Source: Chitinophagaceae bacterium
GTDB lineage: Bacteria; Bacteroidota; Bacteroidia; Cytophagales; Cytophagaceae
Assembly: GCA_028288405.1 (NCBI GenBank)
Contig: JAQBNS010000052.1
Location: 1 to 64,000 of the forward strand
Direction of reading: 5' to 3'
DNA length: 64,000 nt
Positions 40,673-61,800 of the stretch are shown here, piece by piece. The notes under the pieces were generated by a model. It was not told the origin of the DNA and did no database searches. It saw only the letters and a list, made by a program, of their open reading frames with translations. Position 1 is the first letter of the stretch. The number at the start of each line of letters is the position of its first letter. Position numbers and translations under genes: made by a program.

Positions 40673-41479
40673 ATGAGCAACAACACATTTGCGCAGACCT
40701 TATTCGAAAGACATCAAAAAACGGATACCGCTCCTTCCACTTCCAGTGTATGCAAGCTCTTTACGCGTATTTTGCTGATGTTATTTCCGGAACAGTCTCC
40801 TAAAAAATACCGTTCAGCAACCATCATCAAAGACCGTTTGGATATATACAACTCTGAGTTTAAAGAACTTTTGAATGTCATGCAGAAGCAGTTGGACAAA
40901 GATCCGGGCGTTATTTCGGCGGCTTTCATGGCTCAGCTTCCCAAGATTTACGAATTGTTGTGCGACGATATCAAGGCAACTTTAGCGGGTGATCCTGCGG
41001 CGAAAAGTGAGTATGAAGTGATTAGAACCTATCCTGGCTTTTACGCAATTGCCTTTCACCGCATGGCTCATACCTTGTATGAATTGAATGTTCCTTTATT
41101 GCCCAGAATCCTTTCTGAATATGCCCATTCTAAAACAGGCATTGACATCCATCCGGGTGCACAAATTGGATCTAGCTTTTTCATAGACCATGGCACCGGT
41201 GTAGTCATCGGAGAAACAGCCAGTATTGGTAAAAATGTAAAAATATACCAGGGCGTGACACTGGGAGCGCTGAGTGTAACCAAAGACATGGCTTCCCAAA
41301 AACGTCATCCAAGTATTGAAGACGATGTCATCGTATACTCAGGAGCGACGATTTTAGGCGGAGATACCGTCATCGGACACCACAGTGTCATCGGTGGTAA
41401 CGTATGGGTAATCGAAAGTATAGCACCACATTCGAAAGTATACAACCGTGCTCAACCTGAAGTAAGCACTAAAAAATAA
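40673..41479 (+). CDS. cysE: Serine O-acetyltransferase
   Basis: GIDIHPGAQIGSSFFIDHGTGVVIGETASIGKNVKIYQGVTLGA hexapeptide repeats. Confidence 0.9.
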   Translation: MSNNTFAQTLFERHQKTDTAPSTSSVCKLFTRILLMLFPEQSPKKYRSATIIKDRLDIYNSEFKELLNVMQKQLDKDPGVISAAFMAQLPKIYELLCDDIKATLAGDPAAKSEYEVIRTYPGFYAIAFHRMAHTLYELNVPLLPRILSEYAHSKTGIDIHPGAQIGSSFFIDHGTGVVIGETASIGKNVKIYQGVTLGALSVTKDMASQKRHPSIEDDVIVYSGATILGGDTVIGHHSVIGGNVWVIESIAPHSKVYNRAQPEVSTKK

Positions 41480-41481
41480 CC

Positions 41482-42363
41482 ATGGCAGGATTATTAGATT
41501 TTATCGGCAACACGCCATTAGTAGAAATCAAACACCTCAACCCTAACCCGGCTGTTAAGATTTACGCAAAACTAGAAGGACATAATCCCGGAGGAAGTGT
41601 AAAAGACAGAGCCGCTCTATCCCTTATCAAAGGAGCGCTCGAGCGAGGCGAAATAAAACCGGGTGATAAACTGATCGAAGCGACAAGCGGCAATACGGGT
41701 ATTGCCTTAGCGATGATCGCCCGTTTGTTTGACTTGGAAATCGAACTGGTCATGCCAGACAATTCTACCAAAGAACGTGTGTTGACCATGGAGGCTTTCG
41801 GGGCCAAAGTTATTTTAACTCCCGCAGCCATTTCTATGGAAGGAGCAAGAGACTATGCCGAGAACAAAGTCAAGGAAGGTGGTTACATCATGCTTAATCA
41901 ATTTGGCAATCCTGACAACTGGAAAGGCCACTATACTTCTACCGGTCCGGAAATATGGAAAGACACCGATGGAAAAATCACACACTTCGTTTCATCTATG
42001 GGCACAACCGGAACCATCATGGGTGTATCTCGCTTTCTAAAAGAAAAAAACAAAGACATACAAATAGTCGGCGTTCAACCCGATGAAAAGGCACGTATAC
42101 CGGGCATCCGCAGATGGCCAATTGAGTACTTGCCAAAAATATTCGAAGCGCATCGCGTAGACCGAACCATGGATGTCAGCGAAACGGAAGCGATTGAAAT
42201 GACACGCCTGATGGCAAAGAAAGAAGCCATCTTCGCAGGCATGAGCAGCGGAGGAGCAATGGCTATCGCCATTAAACTAGCTAAAGAATTAAAAGAAGGA
42301 GTCATCGTGAGCATCGTATGCGATCGCGGCGATCGTTATTTATCTTCCGACTTGTTTGGGTAA
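41482..42363 (+). CDS. cysM: Cysteine synthase B
   Basis: IGNTPLVEIKHL, LEGHNPGGSVKDRAALSLI, EATSGNTGIALAMIA, SSGGAMAIA. Confidence 0.9.
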   Translation: MAGLLDFIGNTPLVEIKHLNPNPAVKIYAKLEGHNPGGSVKDRAALSLIKGALERGEIKPGDKLIEATSGNTGIALAMIARLFDLEIELVMPDNSTKERVLTMEAFGAKVILTPAAISMEGARDYAENKVKEGGYIMLNQFGNPDNWKGHYTSTGPEIWKDTDGKITHFVSSMGTTGTIMGVSRFLKEKNKDIQIVGVQPDEKARIPGIRRWPIEYLPKIFEAHRVDRTMDVSETEAIEMTRLMAKKEAIFAGMSSGGAMAIAIKLAKELKEGVIVSIVCDRGDRYLSSDLFG

Positions 42364-45499: not shown

Positions 45500-46834
45500 A
45501 TGAAAAGACCCATTAGAAATATTGCCATAGGACTGAGCACCCTTGTCCTGTTCTTTTTTATTTTATCTTATTACAGCCACCTGGTCTACAATGCCGCTTT
45601 AGATGGAAAAAATTCAGGTTTCATCGCGCATCATTTGACTAATTTTGCGAATTATCCAAATAAGATTGAAGAAGTCCTCACGTCAACAGAATTAGCTGGC
45701 ATTCCTTCGACATACCTTAAACTGGACGCCAATTTTAAAGAGGTCAATACTCTTTCTTACAATTTATATGCAGTAAATTCTTTCTGGAACACGGATGGAG
45801 GCTACTGGGATATCAAATTATTTAACCTGCGCCAAGATTCCGTTTTATACAATTGGAAACTAAAAAAAAATGGATTGAATTTCGAAACGACTCATTGGGT
45901 ATTTTCCAATGCGGTACCTCGAAGCTGCCTTATACTCCCAGACAAGTCTCTTATTTTAAGTGCAGATGAAAGTGCTAATCTGATGAGATTAGATGCTCAA
46001 TCAAATGTTATGTGGATCAATCACGATCTCATATTCCATCACACCATGAATTTTGGTGAAGACAGCACCATATGGACCTGTACATCTGATCCAGAGATAA
46101 AAGGTAATATACCTGTTAAAGGCATTCAAAATTTTAATGGAAATATCTACCGCTACAGAGAAAACTATATTACTCAACTTGACAAGAACACGGGAAAAAT
46201 TATTTTTCATAAAGGCGTTTCTGATATCTTAAAAGAAAATCATTACAAAAACTTCTTATGCGGGGTAAGTGATCCCGATAAATATCCTTATGATCCAATG
46301 CACTTAAATGATATTCAACCTTTACTAAAAGATTCCAAGCACTGGAAAAAAGGTGACTTATTGCTTAGTCTAAGAGATCGCTCATTGATTCTACTTTACA
46401 GACCTTCAACCAATAAAATTATCAGACTTATCTTTGGCGAATTTCTTAATCAGCATGATCCTAACGTAATTTCTGATGATGAAATTTCCATTTTCAATAA
46501 TAATTATATCCAACATGAAAATGACACGTTAGATAATGTATGTATTATAACGGATACATTGTGTGCTTCTGAAATCATGATCTACAATTTTAATGATTCA
46601 ACTTTTACCAGGCTTTTAAATAATCATTTAATAAAAGAAAAAATTTGGACTGAAACCCAAGGAGTACATAGGATACTAAAGAATGGAGATATCTTCATTG
46701 AATCTCAAAATAAAGGGAAACTCTATATCCTTAATAAATCAGGATTCGTATACAAAAAAATGTTGCATGCTCCGTTAGAAAATTACGCCTATCATACTAA
46801 TTGGATAAGAATCTACGAACAAATACCCTACTAA
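45500..46834 (+). CDS. ASST-like (arylsulfotransferase fold) membrane-anchored protein
   Basis: N-terminal TM; beta-propeller style repeats and YDPMHLNDIQPLLKDSKHWKKGDLLLSLRDRSLILLYRPSTNKI. Confidence 0.6.
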   Translation: MKRPIRNIAIGLSTLVLFFFILSYYSHLVYNAALDGKNSGFIAHHLTNFANYPNKIEEVLTSTELAGIPSTYLKLDANFKEVNTLSYNLYAVNSFWNTDGGYWDIKLFNLRQDSVLYNWKLKKNGLNFETTHWVFSNAVPRSCLILPDKSLILSADESANLMRLDAQSNVMWINHDLIFHHTMNFGEDSTIWTCTSDPEIKGNIPVKGIQNFNGNIYRYRENYITQLDKNTGKIIFHKGVSDILKENHYKNFLCGVSDPDKYPYDPMHLNDIQPLLKDSKHWKKGDLLLSLRDRSLILLYRPSTNKIIRLIFGEFLNQHDPNVISDDEISIFNNNYIQHENDTLDNVCIITDTLCASEIMIYNFNDSTFTRLLNNHLIKEKIWTETQGVHRILKNGDIFIESQNKGKLYILNKSGFVYKKMLHAPLENYAYHTNWIRIYEQIPY

Positions 46835-46840
46835 TATCAT

Positions 46841-47005
46841 ATGTTGAGCACCTTATTATACATTGGACCAGGTCTAGGTATTGGAACCATATTGCTAGTT
46901 CTTATTATCTTGTTAATTGTTGCGGTAAGCTTTGGCTTAATTTTGTGGATTCCTATTAAAAACTTCTTTAAATGGATATTCTCTACTAAGTCGTCCAGCA
47001 AATGA
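46841..47005 (+). CDS. Small membrane protein with YIGPG motif (54 aa), absent from the supplied ORF track
   Basis: MLSTLLYIGPGLGIGTILLVLIILLIVAVSFGLILWIPIKNFFKWIFSTKSSSK; ATGA overlap with the 47002 start. Confidence 0.75.
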   Translation: MLSTLLYIGPGLGIGTILLVLIILLIVAVSFGLILWIPIKNFFKWIFSTKSSSK

Positions 47006-48393
47006 TTTTAGGACTGCTAATCCTCTTTTCTTCCTTATTACTTTCTACGGGATTAGTTATTTGCAGGACTTCATTTTTCCGCATGGCACGTCACACCATG
47101 GCCATGCTCAATACCATTATTGACACACAGTCCGACGACACAGTCAAACAGAAATTATTGATTCGCAACTTAAGCAATCTGATCCTCTCTTTATTCCTCT
47201 TTTCTTTTTTGATTACTTGCATTTTTGCGCTATCACTGCTTCCACTTTTAGTCTATGCCAACTTTAATTGGATTGCACTAACAAACTTAGACTGGAGTTA
47301 TTTTTCTTACGGTGCATTGCTTATTGGAAGCTCTATTCCATTTGTATTGCTTGCACTAAAAAAAGAAAGGGGAGATTATTCAGAGTGGTCCATGCTGCTG
47401 CACCGCATGATTTTAGACAATGAAAATATTGCAAAACAACTCTTTGCCTTTGAGAAAAAACTATTCGCATCAAAAATCAAACAGCCCAAATCACATTTTG
47501 TAATCGTCTCAGGCCTTGCCAGATCAGGCACCAGCGCTTTAACTACTTTATTGCACGAGTCAGGAATTTTTCATTCTTTGAGCTATGCCAATATGCCATT
47601 TTTACTAAGTCCCAACAGTTGGAAAAAAGTTTATGATCCCACAAGTAAACATTTAAAGGAGCGTGCACATGGAGACAAAGTACTGTTTGGATACACGACA
47701 ATAGAAGCGTTGGAAGAATACTTTTTCAAAGCACACCTGCACAATAGTTTTATTCATGAGAAAACATTGAGTGAACATACTGTAGATGAAAAAACATACC
47801 AAAGCTATTTGCAGTATCAACAATTATTACAAAAAAACAATACGACCACATACCTGGCGAAGAATAACAATTTTATTCTCCGTTACCGCTCCTTGCGTGA
47901 GCTAAACAAAGATTTCAAAGTTATTTTCATTTTTAGAAATCCTATAGAACATGCTTATTCTTTATTTAAGCAACACCAGCGATTTAAAGTATTACACAAG
48001 GAAGATCCTTTCTCTTTAGAATACATGAACTGGCTCGGGCATCATGAGTTCGGAGCGAACCTTAAACACTTTCAATTTGTCACAACTAGTATTCCGGAAA
48101 ATGCAGATCCTGATTCCATGGATTATTGGCTGCATACCTGGATCAACTATTATACAATGATTCTAAATCTGGAAGACGATCCAAACAGGATGTTATTGCA
48201 GTACGAAGATTTTTTGCATGAGCCACGCAAAACTGTTCATGTGTTGTCTGATTTTATTGGGTTATCGATTCCAATTCATAAACTGGAGCCGTTTAAAAAT
48301 GACAACTCGTACACAGGAGAGTTGAACCCATCGCTGAAACAGCAATGCCTCGACTTGTATGTAAAGTTGATGGCGAGGAAAGCAAGTATATAA
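47002..48393 (+). CDS. Membrane-anchored sulfotransferase family protein
   Basis: N-terminal TM helices; PAPS 5'-phosphosulfate loop VIVSGLARSGTSALTTLLHESG; FKVIFIFRNPIEHAYSLFKQH. Confidence 0.85.
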   Translation: MILGLLILFSSLLLSTGLVICRTSFFRMARHTMAMLNTIIDTQSDDTVKQKLLIRNLSNLILSLFLFSFLITCIFALSLLPLLVYANFNWIALTNLDWSYFSYGALLIGSSIPFVLLALKKERGDYSEWSMLLHRMILDNENIAKQLFAFEKKLFASKIKQPKSHFVIVSGLARSGTSALTTLLHESGIFHSLSYANMPFLLSPNSWKKVYDPTSKHLKERAHGDKVLFGYTTIEALEEYFFKAHLHNSFIHEKTLSEHTVDEKTYQSYLQYQQLLQKNNTTTYLAKNNNFILRYRSLRELNKDFKVIFIFRNPIEHAYSLFKQHQRFKVLHKEDPFSLEYMNWLGHHEFGANLKHFQFVTTSIPENADPDSMDYWLHTWINYYTMILNLEDDPNRMLLQYEDFLHEPRKTVHVLSDFIGLSIPIHKLEPFKNDNSYTGELNPSLKQQCLDLYVKLMARKASI

Positions 48394-57284: not shown

Positions 57285-57950
57285 TCATCTCACCGCAACA
57301 ATCATATCCTTCTTACCCGGCGGTCCTTTCACCAATCCTGCTTCAAATCCCACTGTTATCAAGTCTCTCCGCAATTGAGCTTTTGCCGTATAAGTAACTA
57401 ATCGTGCACCGGGTTTCATGGCTTGATACAACTTTTTCAAATTACTGACACCCCATAGTTCTGCCTGTTTTCTGGGAGCAAAGCCATCGAAGTAAACCAC
57501 ATCGTAATAGGCATCAGGCAGCAGCACATCTTCCAGTTTCACTTTATCTTTTAATAAAGTAAAGAGCGCCGTGAGTTTTTGTTTTTCATTCCACTGCGCT
57601 TCATTGAGTTGATTCCACAAGGGTTCTTCAGCCAGCAATTGCCCGTAATTCAGTGCCGACCAAATCTCTTTCGACAAGGGATAAGGTTCTAAACTATGGT
57701 ATTCTGTTTCTTGTCCCCGGCTTTGCGCTTCTATCGCGGTAAGCAGCGCATTCAATCCGGTGCCGTAACCAATTTCAAGTACCTTCAATAATCCCGGTTT
57801 TAGCACCGGTAGAAAACCGTTGTTCAGGTATACATGCACCGACTCGGGTATCGCGCCGCGTGTGGAATGATACGTTTCATTGAGTGCAGGTAAAAAAATA
57901 GTATGTGACCCGTCCTCACACAAAATCAGCTGAGGCTCTTGTTGTTCCAT
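57285..57950 (-). CDS. mnmD: tRNA (5-methylaminomethyl-2-thiouridine)(34)-methyltransferase MnmD-like
   Basis: VLEIGYGTGLNALLTAIEA, DVVYFDGFAPRKQAELWGV, LVTYTAKAQLRRDLITVGF. Confidence 0.88.
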   Translation of the reverse strand: MEQQEPQLILCEDGSHTIFLPALNETYHSTRGAIPESVHVYLNNGFLPVLKPGLLKVLEIGYGTGLNALLTAIEAQSRGQETEYHSLEPYPLSKEIWSALNYGQLLAEEPLWNQLNEAQWNEKQKLTALFTLLKDKVKLEDVLLPDAYYDVVYFDGFAPRKQAELWGVSNLKKLYQAMKPGARLVTYTAKAQLRRDLITVGFEAGLVKGPPGKKDMIVAVR

Positions 57951-58720
57951 TAGTTGAGAAAAGGGATTTGTCCTAAACAGTAAAAAGAACTGTTCAATAA
58001 ATTTTCTTTATTGTAACGGAAACGCTTTCCATCGGGCAGCAACACCTTGCCTCCTGCAGCTTCTACTACCGCCTGTCCTGCGGCAGTATCCCACTCCATG
58101 GTAGGACCATGGCGGTAATACAAATCGGCTGAACCCTCTGCTATCATGCAAAACTTCAGTGAACTTCCAACGGCTATCGTCTCTTCCACTTTGTATTTTG
58201 CCATCACATCTGCTTCTTCCTGCGAGCTGTGAGAACGGCTGCCAACAGCTGTAATGTGTGTATGGGTATTCTTTACGTGAATAGAAGTTTCTATCCCGTC
58301 AATAATTTTTACCGCTCCTTGAGCATCGCCCCAATACAAAACCTTTTGAACCGGTACATACACCAGGCCCAATACCGGATAACCATTCTCCATCAAAGCA
58401 ATGTTCACGGTAAACTGCCCGTTGCGTTTGATGAACTCACGCGTACCGTCCAAGGGATCAACAAGCCAGAACTTCGTCCACTCTTTACGTTCGGTATAAT
58501 CTGTATGTTTTCCTTCTTCGGAAAGCACAGGAATATCGGACCAAAGACCCTTTAAAGCCTCATCAATAACAATATGGGCCGCTTTATCAGCCTTCGTCAA
58601 AGGAGAATGATCTGCCTTAAAATCTATACTCGCGTGGAAATCGTCGTGAAGGTATATCTCCATGATCTTTTCCCCCGCTTTCAAGGCAATCTCGATCAAT
58701 TCCTGTTTCATCGTTTTCAT
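57950..58720 (-). CDS. cysQ: 3'(2'),5'-bisphosphate nucleotidase
   Basis: Preferred start MKTMKQELIEIALKAGEKI; DHSPLTKADKAAH, PVLSEEG, WLVDPLDGTREFIKRNGQFTVNIAL, MEWDTAAGQAVVEAAGG. Confidence 0.9.
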   Translation of the reverse strand: MKTMKQELIEIALKAGEKIMEIYLHDDFHASIDFKADHSPLTKADKAAHIVIDEALKGLWSDIPVLSEEGKHTDYTERKEWTKFWLVDPLDGTREFIKRNGQFTVNIALMENGYPVLGLVYVPVQKVLYWGDAQGAVKIIDGIETSIHVKNTHTHITAVGSRSHSSQEEADVMAKYKVEETIAVGSSLKFCMIAEGSADLYYRHGPTMEWDTAAGQAVVEAAGGKVLLPDGKRFRYNKENLLNSSFYCLGQIPFLN

Positions 58721-58947
58721 AGGCTTCAAAAATACAGAATTCCCAAGAAAAAGGACTGAAGAAAAGGAATTTAACATTCGGCAAAAAAGCCAATTGTTAG
58801 AATTATGTTTCTGTGATTCAGCGGAAGTCAAACATTCGCTTGTTGATTCCCTGCAGAAGTGCAATTTTCTTTGGCAGAGGGCTTTCAGTATGAATCTTTT
58901 AAGTAATGAAAGCACCAAATTTTATTCGCTTATTAAGAGAAAAATTG

Positions 58948-58955
58948 TATTTTTG
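58948..58955 (+). promoter_or_regulatory. TAnnTTTG promoter element upstream of cysC
   Basis: TATTTTTG 17 nt upstream of the ATG; no clear TTG box at the ideal spacing. Confidence 0.4.
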
Positions 58956-58971
58956 CAGTCCTTAAGTACAC

Positions 58972-59562
58972 ATGGAAAACATCCACCCTATATTTGACCA
59001 GGTTTTAGCAAGGACTTCAAAAGAAGCCATGCTGCATCAGAAAGGCATTGTATTGTGGTTCGTAGGACTCTCCGGATCAGGTAAAAGTACCATTGCCAAA
59101 GCGCTTGAACGAGATTTGCATCAAGCGGGTAAACTCACCATGTTATTGGATGGTGACAATTTGAGAACAGGCATCAATAACAACTTAGGTTTCTCTGAAG
59201 CGGACCGCAAAGAAAACATCCGACGTGCCGCCGAGGTAGCCAAGCTCTTTGCTGATAATGGCATCATTACCATTTGTTCGCTGATCAGTCCAACCGAAGA
59301 AATCCGCAACATGGCGAAAGAAATCATTGGGAAAGACTATTTCGAAGTATTCATCAACTGTCCTTTGGAAATATGCGAACAGCGCGATGTAAAAGGATTG
59401 TATCAAAAAGCGCGTAAAGGAGAAATCAAAAACTTTACCGGCATTGATTCTCCTTTCGAACATCCAGTGCATCCATCCATTGAAGTGCGCACAGACCTTA
59501 CGTCTTTAGACGAGTGCAAAGACAACATCTTGCGCGCCGTTACACCACTCATTACTCAATAA
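58972..59562 (+). CDS. cysC: Adenylylsulfate kinase
   Basis: LWFVGLSGSGKSTIAKALERDL, LLDGDNLRTGINNNLGFSEADRKENIRR. Confidence 0.95.
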   Translation: MENIHPIFDQVLARTSKEAMLHQKGIVLWFVGLSGSGKSTIAKALERDLHQAGKLTMLLDGDNLRTGINNNLGFSEADRKENIRRAAEVAKLFADNGIITICSLISPTEEIRNMAKEIIGKDYFEVFINCPLEICEQRDVKGLYQKARKGEIKNFTGIDSPFEHPVHPSIEVRTDLTSLDECKDNILRAVTPLITQ

Positions 59563-59575
59563 GAAATCTACACAC

Positions 59576-60481
59576 ATGGCATCTTATAATCTTACACACC
59601 TTAAACAACTGGAAGCAGAAGCGATCTTCATCATGCGCGAAGTGGCTGCTCAGTTTGAAAAACCGGTCTTGCTTTTTTCAGGAGGTAAAGACTCTATCGT
59701 TATGGTTCGCCTGGCGCAGAAAGCCTTTTCTCCGGCAAAGTTTCCTTTCCCTTTGATGCACATCGATACCGGACACAACTTTGTTGAAGCCATCGACTTC
59801 CGTGATGACATGGTCGCTAAGTTAGGAGCCAACCTGATTGTGCGTTATGTACAAGACTCTATCGACAAAGGTCGTGCGCAGGACGAGAAAGGTCCTAACC
59901 CTAGTCGCAACGGTTTGCAAACGATTACACTGTTAGATGCGATTGAAGAATTTAAATTCGATGCCGCATTTGGTGGAGCAAGAAGAGACGAAGAAAAAGC
60001 ACGTGCAAAAGAACGTTTCTTTTCACACAGAGATGAATTCGGACAATGGGATCCTAAAAACCAACGTCCCGAATTATGGAACTTGTTCAACGGAAGAAAA
60101 AATCCGGGAGAACATTTCCGCGTCTTCCCATTGAGCAACTGGACAGAGATGGATGTATGGCAATACATCGCCAGCGAAAAACTGGACATACCAAACATCT
60201 ACTTTACACACAAAAGAGAAATCGTAGTTCGTGACGGTGCATTACTCGCCAAATCTGATTTCATTACCTTATTGAACGGCGAGAAATACGAAGAAAGAAT
60301 CGTGCGTTTCCGTACCGTTGGAGATATGACGTGTACAGGAGCAGTAGAGTCGACAGCAGACAACCTGGATGACATCATTCAGGAAGTAGCGTCAGCGCGT
60401 CAGACAGAGCGTGGTACCAGAGCCGATGACAAACGTTCAGAGGCGGCTATGGAAGACCGCAAGAAACAAGGTTACTTTTAA
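59576..60481 (+). CDS. cysD: Sulfate adenylyltransferase subunit 2
   Basis: LFSGGKDSIVMVRLAQKAF, AAFGGARRDEEKARAKERFFSHRDEFGQWDPKNQRPELWNLFNGR. Confidence 0.97.
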   Translation: MASYNLTHLKQLEAEAIFIMREVAAQFEKPVLLFSGGKDSIVMVRLAQKAFSPAKFPFPLMHIDTGHNFVEAIDFRDDMVAKLGANLIVRYVQDSIDKGRAQDEKGPNPSRNGLQTITLLDAIEEFKFDAAFGGARRDEEKARAKERFFSHRDEFGQWDPKNQRPELWNLFNGRKNPGEHFRVFPLSNWTEMDVWQYIASEKLDIPNIYFTHKREIVVRDGALLAKSDFITLLNGEKYEERIVRFRTVGDMTCTGAVESTADNLDDIIQEVASARQTERGTRADDKRSEAAMEDRKKQGYF

Positions 60482-60510
60482 TTGATACTTATTAAGAAGC
60501 ATTACCGATC

Positions 60511-61800
60511 ATGAATACTGAAATTGAAGAAAAAATAGATTCGCAAAAATACCTTGAAATGGACCTGCTGCGCTTCACTACCGCTGGTAGTGTCGACGAT
60601 GGAAAGAGTACACTCATCGGTCGTTTGCTTTATGATAGCAAAGCTATTTTTGAAGATCAAATGGATGCCATTGAAGAAGTCAGCAACCGCAAAGGCAAAG
60701 GTTATGTGGATCTTTCTCTATTAACGGACGGCTTGCGTGCAGAACGCGAACAAGGTATTACCATTGATGTGGCCTACCGTTACTTCGCTACACCAAAAAG
60801 AAAATTCATCATCTCCGATACACCCGGTCATATCCAATATACCCGCAACATGGTGACCGGTGCATCCACTGCTAATCTGGCTATCATCTTAGTCGATGCT
60901 CGCAAGGGAGTGATTGAACAAACTTGTCGCCACAGCTTCATTGCTTCCTTGTTGCAAATCAAACACGTGATCGTTTGTATCAACAAAATGGATCTTGTGG
61001 ATTTCAAACAAGAGGTGTTTGAAAAAATACAACAAGACTACAAAGACTTCGCTTCTAAATTGTCGATACCTGATATTCGTTTCATTCCGATCTCTGCCTT
61101 GTTGGGAGATAACGTCGTGGACCGTTCGGAGAACATGACCTGGTATGAAGGCAGCACTTTGTTGCATACCCTGGAAAATGTAAACATCAGCAGCGATCAG
61201 AATTTTGTGGATGCACGTTTCCCTGTACAATATGTGATTCGTCCTCAAAGTGATGAGTTCCATGATTTCAGAGGTTATGCAGGACGTATAGAAGGTGGAG
61301 TATTCAAACCGGGTGACGAAGTGATTGCACTTCCTTCCGGGTTCTCTTCTAAAATCAAAACCATCGAAACCATCGACGGTCAATTGGCAGAGGCTTTCCC
61401 TCCCATGTCCGTTACCATTACGTTGGAAACAGAAATTGACATCAGCCGTGGAGACATGCTGGTGAAAGCCAATAACCAACCTCAAAACAGTCAGGATGTA
61501 GAACTGATGATCTGCTGGTTGAACGAAAAGAAATTGGTACCCAACGGCAAGTACGTCATTCGTCATACGACGAAAGAAGCACGCTGCATTGTAAAAGAGG
61601 TACGTTATAAAATGAACATCAACACGCTTCACCGCGTGGAAGACGATACGACGATAGGATTGAACGATATAGGACGTATTCTGATTCGCACTACTGCTCC
61701 ATTGTTCTATGACAGCTATACCAAAAACCGTTTCACCGGCAGCGTCATCTTAATTGATGAATTTACCAATGAGACTGTCGGAGCCGGTATGATCATCTAA
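60511..61800 (+). CDS. cysN: Sulfate adenylyltransferase subunit 1 (GTPase)
   Basis: LRFTTAGSVDDGKSTLIGRLLYDSK, EREQGITIDVAYRYFATPKRKFIISDTPGHIQYTRNM; no C-terminal CysC fusion. Confidence 0.96.
   Translation: MNTEIEEKIDSQKYLEMDLLRFTTAGSVDDGKSTLIGRLLYDSKAIFEDQMDAIEEVSNRKGKGYVDLSLLTDGLRAEREQGITIDVAYRYFATPKRKFIISDTPGHIQYTRNMVTGASTANLAIILVDARKGVIEQTCRHSFIASLLQIKHVIVCINKMDLVDFKQEVFEKIQQDYKDFASKLSIPDIRFIPISALLGDNVVDRSENMTWYEGSTLLHTLENVNISSDQNFVDARFPVQYVIRPQSDEFHDFRGYAGRIEGGVFKPGDEVIALPSGFSSKIKTIETIDGQLAEAFPPMSVTITLETEIDISRGDMLVKANNQPQNSQDVELMICWLNEKKLVPNGKYVIRHTTKEARCIVKEVRYKMNINTLHRVEDDTTIGLNDIGRILIRTTAPLFYDSYTKNRFTGSVILIDEFTNETVGAGMII

Follow-up and report, generated by a model that had tools for sequence, protein, structure and literature searches.

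A conserved cassette of an ASST-like propeller, a Y-x-G-P-G peptide and a membrane-anchored sulfotransferase as a candidate trans-membrane sulfuryl relay

Three adjacent genes in a 64,000-nucleotide stretch of bacterial DNA, referred to here as the window, make up a real and conserved cassette, a conclusion that we hold with near certainty. They encode an ASST-like beta-propeller, a very small membrane peptide and a PAPS-type sulfotransferase. With a little more confidence than doubt, we read the cassette as a trans-membrane sulfuryl relay, in which sulfate would pass from PAPS to an aryl-sulfate carrier held in the membrane, from there to a histidine of the ASST, and finally to an acceptor in the envelope.

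All three open reading frames had been proposed in an earlier, sequence-only reading of the window, and the ORF listing gave the same coordinates and strand for each. ORF1 (45500..46834, + strand; 444 aa) is the ASST-like protein and matches PF14269 (Arylsulfotran_2, 2.8e-33), ORF2 (46841..47005, + strand; 54 aa) is a peptide with a Y-x-G-P-G motif and one TM helix for which Pfam and NCBIfam searches returned no family, and ORF3 (47002..48393, + strand; 463 aa) is a sulfotransferase of the Sulfotransfer_1/3 type with TM helices at its N-terminus. The packing is as tight as had been described, with 6 nt between the stop of ORF1 and the start of ORF2, and an ATGA overlap of ORF2 and ORF3 at 47002-47005. 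NCBIfam gave zero matches for the three window proteins or for the separate TM protein that occurs at other loci (see below). The genes immediately flanking the cassette in the window are unrelated to it. The locus of the window is closest to that of a Cytophagaceae MAG, at 83% identity, followed by that of a MAG carrying the label Chitinophagaceae (70%) and that of Cytophaga aurantiaca (69%), which places the host in the Cytophaga group.

The earlier reading had allowed that the three genes might never occur together elsewhere; they do so widely. Loci were picked solely by their similarity to ORF3 or its alignment and the neighbours were scored only afterwards, so the linkage is not an artefact of the search design. 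A wide genome scan, in which 80 loci were kept and some 150 weaker candidates left out, gave together with one further locus (L005) a set of 81, and in 75 of these both an ASST and a Y-x-G-P-G peptide adjoin the ORF3 homologue (56 of 62 groups after grouping at 80% identity). L005 makes a 76th full locus, longer sequence placing the peptide directly upstream of its ASST. Two loci that lack the full set, L059 and L027, lie near a contig end, and three more (L053, L067 and L083) are without an ASST in the sequence examined. Outside the 81-locus count, genome G383 (locus L145) keeps the sulfotransferase where ASST and peptide are missing; the flanking genes are like those of its close relative G427 (L146), which has the full set, and it is G383 that lost the other two genes. 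The distribution of ORF3 is patchy, with 5 of 242 genomes of the order carrying it, and cassette hosts are found in Bacteroidota, Pseudomonadota and Thermodesulfobacteriota, including many Bacteroidota families as well as Paracoccaceae, Halieaceae and Desulfobacteraceae. Cultured strains that carry it are Cytophaga aurantiaca DSM 3654, Winogradskyella flava and Formosa maritima.

The usual gene order is ASST, peptide and sulfotransferase, with gaps that are small or replaced by overlaps. In nine loci forming one clade (L043, L044, L045, L048, L050-L052, L056 and L057) peptide and ASST are one fusion protein, with the peptide in front; here the cassette is flanked by genes that match two CoA-transferase subunits and lies behind a penicillin-binding-protein-like gene. 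In at least 17 loci (L005, L060-L064, L068-L071 and others) the membrane domain of ORF3 is instead a separate gene of about 123-133 aa, with the peptide on one side of it and a soluble sulfotransferase on the other. The split or fused state of this domain accounts for 5 changes on the sulfotransferase tree and the peptide-ASST fusion for 1. Distances in the sulfotransferase and ASST trees correlate with a rho of 0.88 (permuted maximum 0.17), a value that shared species descent also raises and that is thus evidence of joint inheritance rather than of contact. Linkage over three phyla and the peptide-ASST fusions bear out the proposal that the three genes are one inherited unit. Their products may form a physical complex.

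Genes for PAPS supply are found near the cassette in the window and elsewhere. Roughly 10 kb downstream of it in the window (57950-61800) are cysQ, for the 3'(2'),5'-bisphosphate nucleotidase that removes PAP (57950..58918, - strand; TIGR01331, 2e-85), cysC, for the APS kinase that makes PAPS (58972..59562, + strand; TIGR00455, 2.2e-73), and cysD and cysN, for the small and large subunits of sulfate adenylyltransferase (59576..60481, + strand; TIGR02039, 5.8e-132; and 60511..61800, + strand; TIGR02034, 1.2e-171). The cysQ of the window is likely a supply gene for PAPS chemistry with a putative link to the cassette. On the cassette's other side, at 40673-42363, lie cysE/cysM-like genes. Across the other genomes, 14 loci belonging to several groups have cysC no more than about 2.4 kb from the cassette, in two of them on the opposite strand, and the adjacency of cysC accounts for 8 changes on the sulfotransferase tree; the full set of cysQ, cysC, cysD and cysN stands beside the cassette in L049, L062 and L070. 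The adjoining APS kinase in these 14 loci is an indirect pointer to the use of PAPS by ORF3. The genome of the window also encodes a CysH-type protein (contig C22; positions 1444-2103 of locus L142) with a CC...C-x-x-C and ECGL pattern, which we take to be that of APS reductases and which would make it an APS-reductase type. Some such CysH-type reductases take both substrates. With its APS-reductase-like pattern, PAPS may be unneeded for assimilation. The gene is followed by an overlapping ORF resembling NAD-dependent epimerases.

These observations bear on the possibility that the ASST scavenges or detoxifies phenols from outside, taking sulfate off them or putting it onto them, and that its link to the PAPS enzyme reflects shared regulation only. 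Purified ASSTs do accept many outside phenols, and the E. coli enzyme has been proposed to act in this way (PMC13426309). However, the peptide-ASST fusion, the gene overlap, the joint inheritance and the neighbouring genes for PAPS synthesis all argue for a single process, and scavenging seems to us decidedly improbable.

The earlier description of ORF3 as a PAPS-type sulfotransferase fused to TM helices agrees with its Pfam matches, its fold matches and its predicted helices. The Sulfotransfer_1/3 families (PF00685/PF13469, 1.6e-12 / 3.1e-11) match residues 167-424, and hydrophobic helices lie within residues 1-120. In the AlphaFold model (pLDDT 91.9) the N-terminal helices cover residues 2-39, 46-85 and 100-119. 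The N-terminal membrane domain (residues 1-120; 47002..47361, + strand) corresponds to the separate gene of other loci, and its predicted layout is TM1, a cytosolic helical hairpin, TM2 and TM3. The PAPS-dependent sulfotransferase domain, predicted to be cytosolic, follows from about residue 160 to residue 463 (47479..48393, + strand) and is defined by PF00685, the model and fold matches in the PDB. The latter are PAPS-dependent sulfotransferases, among them M. tuberculosis STF1, the A. acidocaldarius ST, NDST1, the curacin ST, TPST2 and 3-OST. The residues expected to bind PAPS, the lack of which had been named as a test of the assignment, are invariant in all 57 homologues; this holds for G171, L172, A173, R174, G176 and T177 of the PAPS loop (G171-L-A-R-x-G-T177) and for R312 and S320 of the 3'-phosphate site. 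A motif of the family's own, K287-N-N-N290, is likewise invariant in the 57. ORF3 thus shares its predicted fold, PAPS loop and 3'-phosphate residues with known PAPS sulfotransferases (M. tuberculosis STF1, heparan sulfate sulfotransferases and TPST), but unlike them it is fused to, or encoded beside, a three-helix membrane domain and carries the invariant K-N-N-N (287-290). From its helix layout this domain was considered as Oxa1/EMC3-like, an idea that we dropped as no Oxa1/EMC3-like protein came up in searches of solved structures; the only match to the domain was a weak one (0.039) to the designed protein TMHC2_E.

For ORF1, the match to PF14269 (116 bits, cut-off 27) and the fold match to Streptomyces Cpz4 support its description as an ASST-like propeller. 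A membrane anchor at about residues 4-29 precedes the propeller, which is predicted to lie in the periplasm. The fold was modelled on a natural peptide-ASST fusion, L048, rather than on the window protein (pLDDT 85.8), and the best PDB matches of this model, 9KF6 (6.5e-12) and 9KF4 (1.3e-11), are both Cpz4, at an identity of 15-16%. A sequence search with the ASST profile likewise hits 9KF4 (4.5e-8), which is outscored there by one sequence, a designed repeat propeller matching one short stretch many times. In E. coli AssT, sulfate is carried on His436 with His252, His356, Asn358, Arg374 and Thr501 around it (PMC13426309). The corresponding set in ORF1 would be H180/H181, H268, N270, R292, H319 and T384, where H268, N270, R292 and H319 were registered by profile alignment to Cpz4 (9KF4), and H181 and T384 were assigned to their AssT counterparts by motif and order, without a direct alignment to AssT. 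Of these, H181, H268, N270 and H319 are invariant in 63 ASST homologues; at the position of R292, 52 of these have Arg and 11 Lys, and at that of T384, 57 have Thr and 6 Ser. By this comparison the active-site set known from E. coli AssT is conserved in the ORF1 family, with H319 as the predicted counterpart of His436.

Beta-propellers frequently act as scaffolds, and the exchange of the active-site Arg for Lys in part of the family could be taken to mean that the ASST is a non-catalytic scaffold or sensor, the PAPS enzyme alone being active. We find this very improbable, as the invariance of His181, His268, Asn270 and His319 would be needless in a scaffold. The cassette protein has counterparts of all six AssT residues named above (PMC13426309), but unlike AssT it belongs to PF14269 rather than PF05935 and is genetically linked to a PAPS enzyme. 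The AssT-type profile PF05935 gave zero matches in genome G000 at E 0.001, and weak ones in G104 and G427 only. PF14269 alone was rejected as a marker of the cassette, most of its Bacteroidota members being long proteins encoded elsewhere (54 of 248 genomes). These long PF14269 proteins, in open frames of about 600-1300 aa that often stand in tandem on one contig, occur in around a fifth of the sampled Bacteroidota genomes; they are unrelated to the cassette and apparently unstudied.

The ORF2 peptide, 54 hydrophobic residues beginning MLSTLLYIGPGLGIG, is built of a motif at the N-terminus, one TM helix and a basic tail, which agrees with its earlier description as a tiny TM protein. Y7, G9, P10 and G11 are invariant in 47 homologues. 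In all 10 members with a long N-terminus, an A-x-A cleavage site stands just before the motif Tyr, so the mature peptide would start with this invariant residue, on the periplasmic side. That ORF2 is a generic membrane peptide was rejected, as among 297 Bacteroidota genomes the strong matches, inspected singly down to E 8e-4, sit only in the sulfotransferase-bearing G000, G427 and G431. In the L048 fusion model the peptide end has a pLDDT of 36-45, and no protein-protein contact was modelled with confidence. For the Desulfatibacillum peptide (positions 7384-7626 of L066), NCBIfam returned a weak hit (2.8e-4, under the cut-off) to NF045610 acin_4_helix, the entry for a putative four-helix membrane protein.

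Topology was read from the positive-inside charge bias, hydrophobic anchors and the cleavage-site pattern. In ORF3, K+R per 10 residues is 1.48 in loop 1 and 1.68 after TM3, against 0.47 in the TM2-TM3 loop, and the catalytic domain is predicted on the cytosolic face. The peptide carries on average 6.1 K+R in its tail and 0.4 on the motif side, giving a predicted N-out, C-in orientation. In 63 of 63 ASSTs the N-terminus has a hydrophobic anchor that is preceded by more positive charge than follows it, which predicts the propeller in the periplasm. The two catalytic domains would therefore very probably face opposite sides of the membrane. The suggestion of a membrane complex that sulfates a lipid or exported polysaccharide fits the enzyme types, the TM parts and some polysaccharide neighbours; its single-substrate form is where our reading departs from it, as with the predicted faces opposed a one-substrate complex leaves the pairing of two unrelated sulfotransferases unexplained.

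A precedent for such a pairing is found in caprazamycin biosynthesis, where the PAPS-dependent Cpz8 puts sulfate on a triketide pyrone, from which Cpz4, itself PAPS-independent, transfers it to the antibiotic (Tang 2013, as cited in PMC4257720). The cassette resembles this Streptomyces system in joining a PAPS sulfotransferase to an ASST of the PAPS-independent type, with Cpz4 as the best PDB fold match. It differs in that both its enzymes are anchored in the membrane, the prediction placing them on opposite faces, that a small conserved peptide is added, that no type III PKS is linked, and that the identity between the ORF1 family and Cpz4 is low (15-16%). The precedent points to a two-step relay, and we consider it somewhat more likely than not that sulfate is handed over between the two enzymes. 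In the first step, as the fold and motifs suggest, the anchored sulfotransferase would move sulfate from PAPS to a membrane-held phenolic carrier at the cytosolic face. The sulfated carrier would then reach the periplasmic leaflet, aided by the TM domain, the Y-x-G-P-G peptide or both, where H319 of the ASST, to go by the active-site residues, would take up the sulfate and hand it to an acceptor in the envelope.

No carrier-making gene was found to recur among the neighbours of the cassette, which makes a housekeeping membrane phenol such as a quinol a plausible carrier. A loose precedent is mycobacterial Stf3, which belongs to a sulfomenaquinone cluster with a PAPS operon (PMC7081687). A linked type III PKS was rejected as the source of a carrier; it does not recur beside the cassette, being encoded elsewhere in the genome, and with 180 of 242 genomes of the order having a PKS its presence is non-specific. 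In cassette-bearing G104 no type III PKS was found at the threshold used for the order survey.

The peptide itself might serve as the carrier, its invariant Tyr being sulfated from PAPS by the membrane sulfotransferase and then acting as the aryl-sulfate donor of the ASST. Tyrosine is a phenol, is invariant here and is predicted to begin the mature peptide in all 10 long-N members, and the shortage of any recurring carrier gene would also be accounted for; moreover, tyrosine peptides are ASST substrates in vitro (PMC13426309). Tyrosylprotein sulfotransferases are among the fold matches of ORF3, though only some of many. The Tyr is, however, predicted in the periplasm and the PAPS enzyme in the cytosol, so that the motif would have to pass through the membrane to be loaded, and being on the wrong face makes the Tyr a less likely carrier than, for instance, a quinol. 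We regard the idea as a long shot; if true, the cassette would be a dedicated machine that brings its own carrier for taking activated sulfate across the cytoplasmic membrane.

For the final acceptor of the relay, a hydroxyl group on a sugar of some exported polysaccharide or glycolipid seems likeliest, because of the preference of Cpz4, which favours a sugar hydroxyl (PMC13426309), and of some neighbouring genes. Sugar epimerase genes lie downstream in L062, L068, L070, L077 and L079, accompanied in all but L068 by a UDP-sugar dehydrogenase gene, and in L049 glycosyltransferases lie upstream of the cassette. The proposed link to polysaccharide is supported to the extent that glycan genes adjoin some copies; many others have no glycan gene nearby. 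On balance we think an envelope glycan or glycolipid probable, by a modest degree. Known bacterial clusters for sulfated polysaccharides (synechan, PMC8205485; Vibrio, PMC11641403; Cobetia, PMC11766843), likened here by description only, sulfate a surface polysaccharide from PAPS.

The same neighbours would suit two separate sulfations of one product, with the cytosolic enzyme acting on a lipid-linked glycan or glycolipid before export and the ASST adding more sulfate from some other aryl-sulfate donor, with no hand-over. Sulfotransfer_1/3 enzymes often sulfate glycans and lipids directly, and heparan sulfate sulfotransferases are among the PDB matches of ORF3. Yet this reading explains neither the strict linkage over three phyla, nor the peptide, nor the source of a periplasmic donor, and the likeness to Cpz4 favours an ASST that is fed; we hold it to be unlikely, though deserving of some weight.

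Of the components, ASSTs, PAPS sulfotransferases and two-step sulfation are already known, and the cassette and its peptide are outside any named family. The sequence-only reading could not name the combination, which stands for the cassette and the peptide but not for the ASST, whose solved relative Cpz4 has a known role. A literature search, with most subscription journals outside its scope, found no paper describing the cassette, and for YIGPG only unrelated vaccine papers. A 2026 review describes the natural acceptors of most bacterial aryl sulfotransferases as unidentified and their physiological role as poorly understood (PMC13426309). The linked partner in the cassette suggests that in many genomes a periplasmic ASST draws its sulfate from inside the cell, by way of PAPS, and opens the role of the ASST to a direct test in which genes are deleted and surface sulfate is analysed. 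PAPS synthesis is cytosolic, and the relay, if true, would therefore explain how sulfate is added outside the membrane and would give a poorly understood class of outside ASSTs a natural job. The cassette also draws attention to sulfated envelope molecules, as yet unstudied, in Cytophaga, Winogradskyella, Mucilaginibacter, Flagellimonas and others. Extra ASST copies lie near the cassette in several loci (three in L081 and two each in L061, L069 and L066), and their acceptors perhaps differ.
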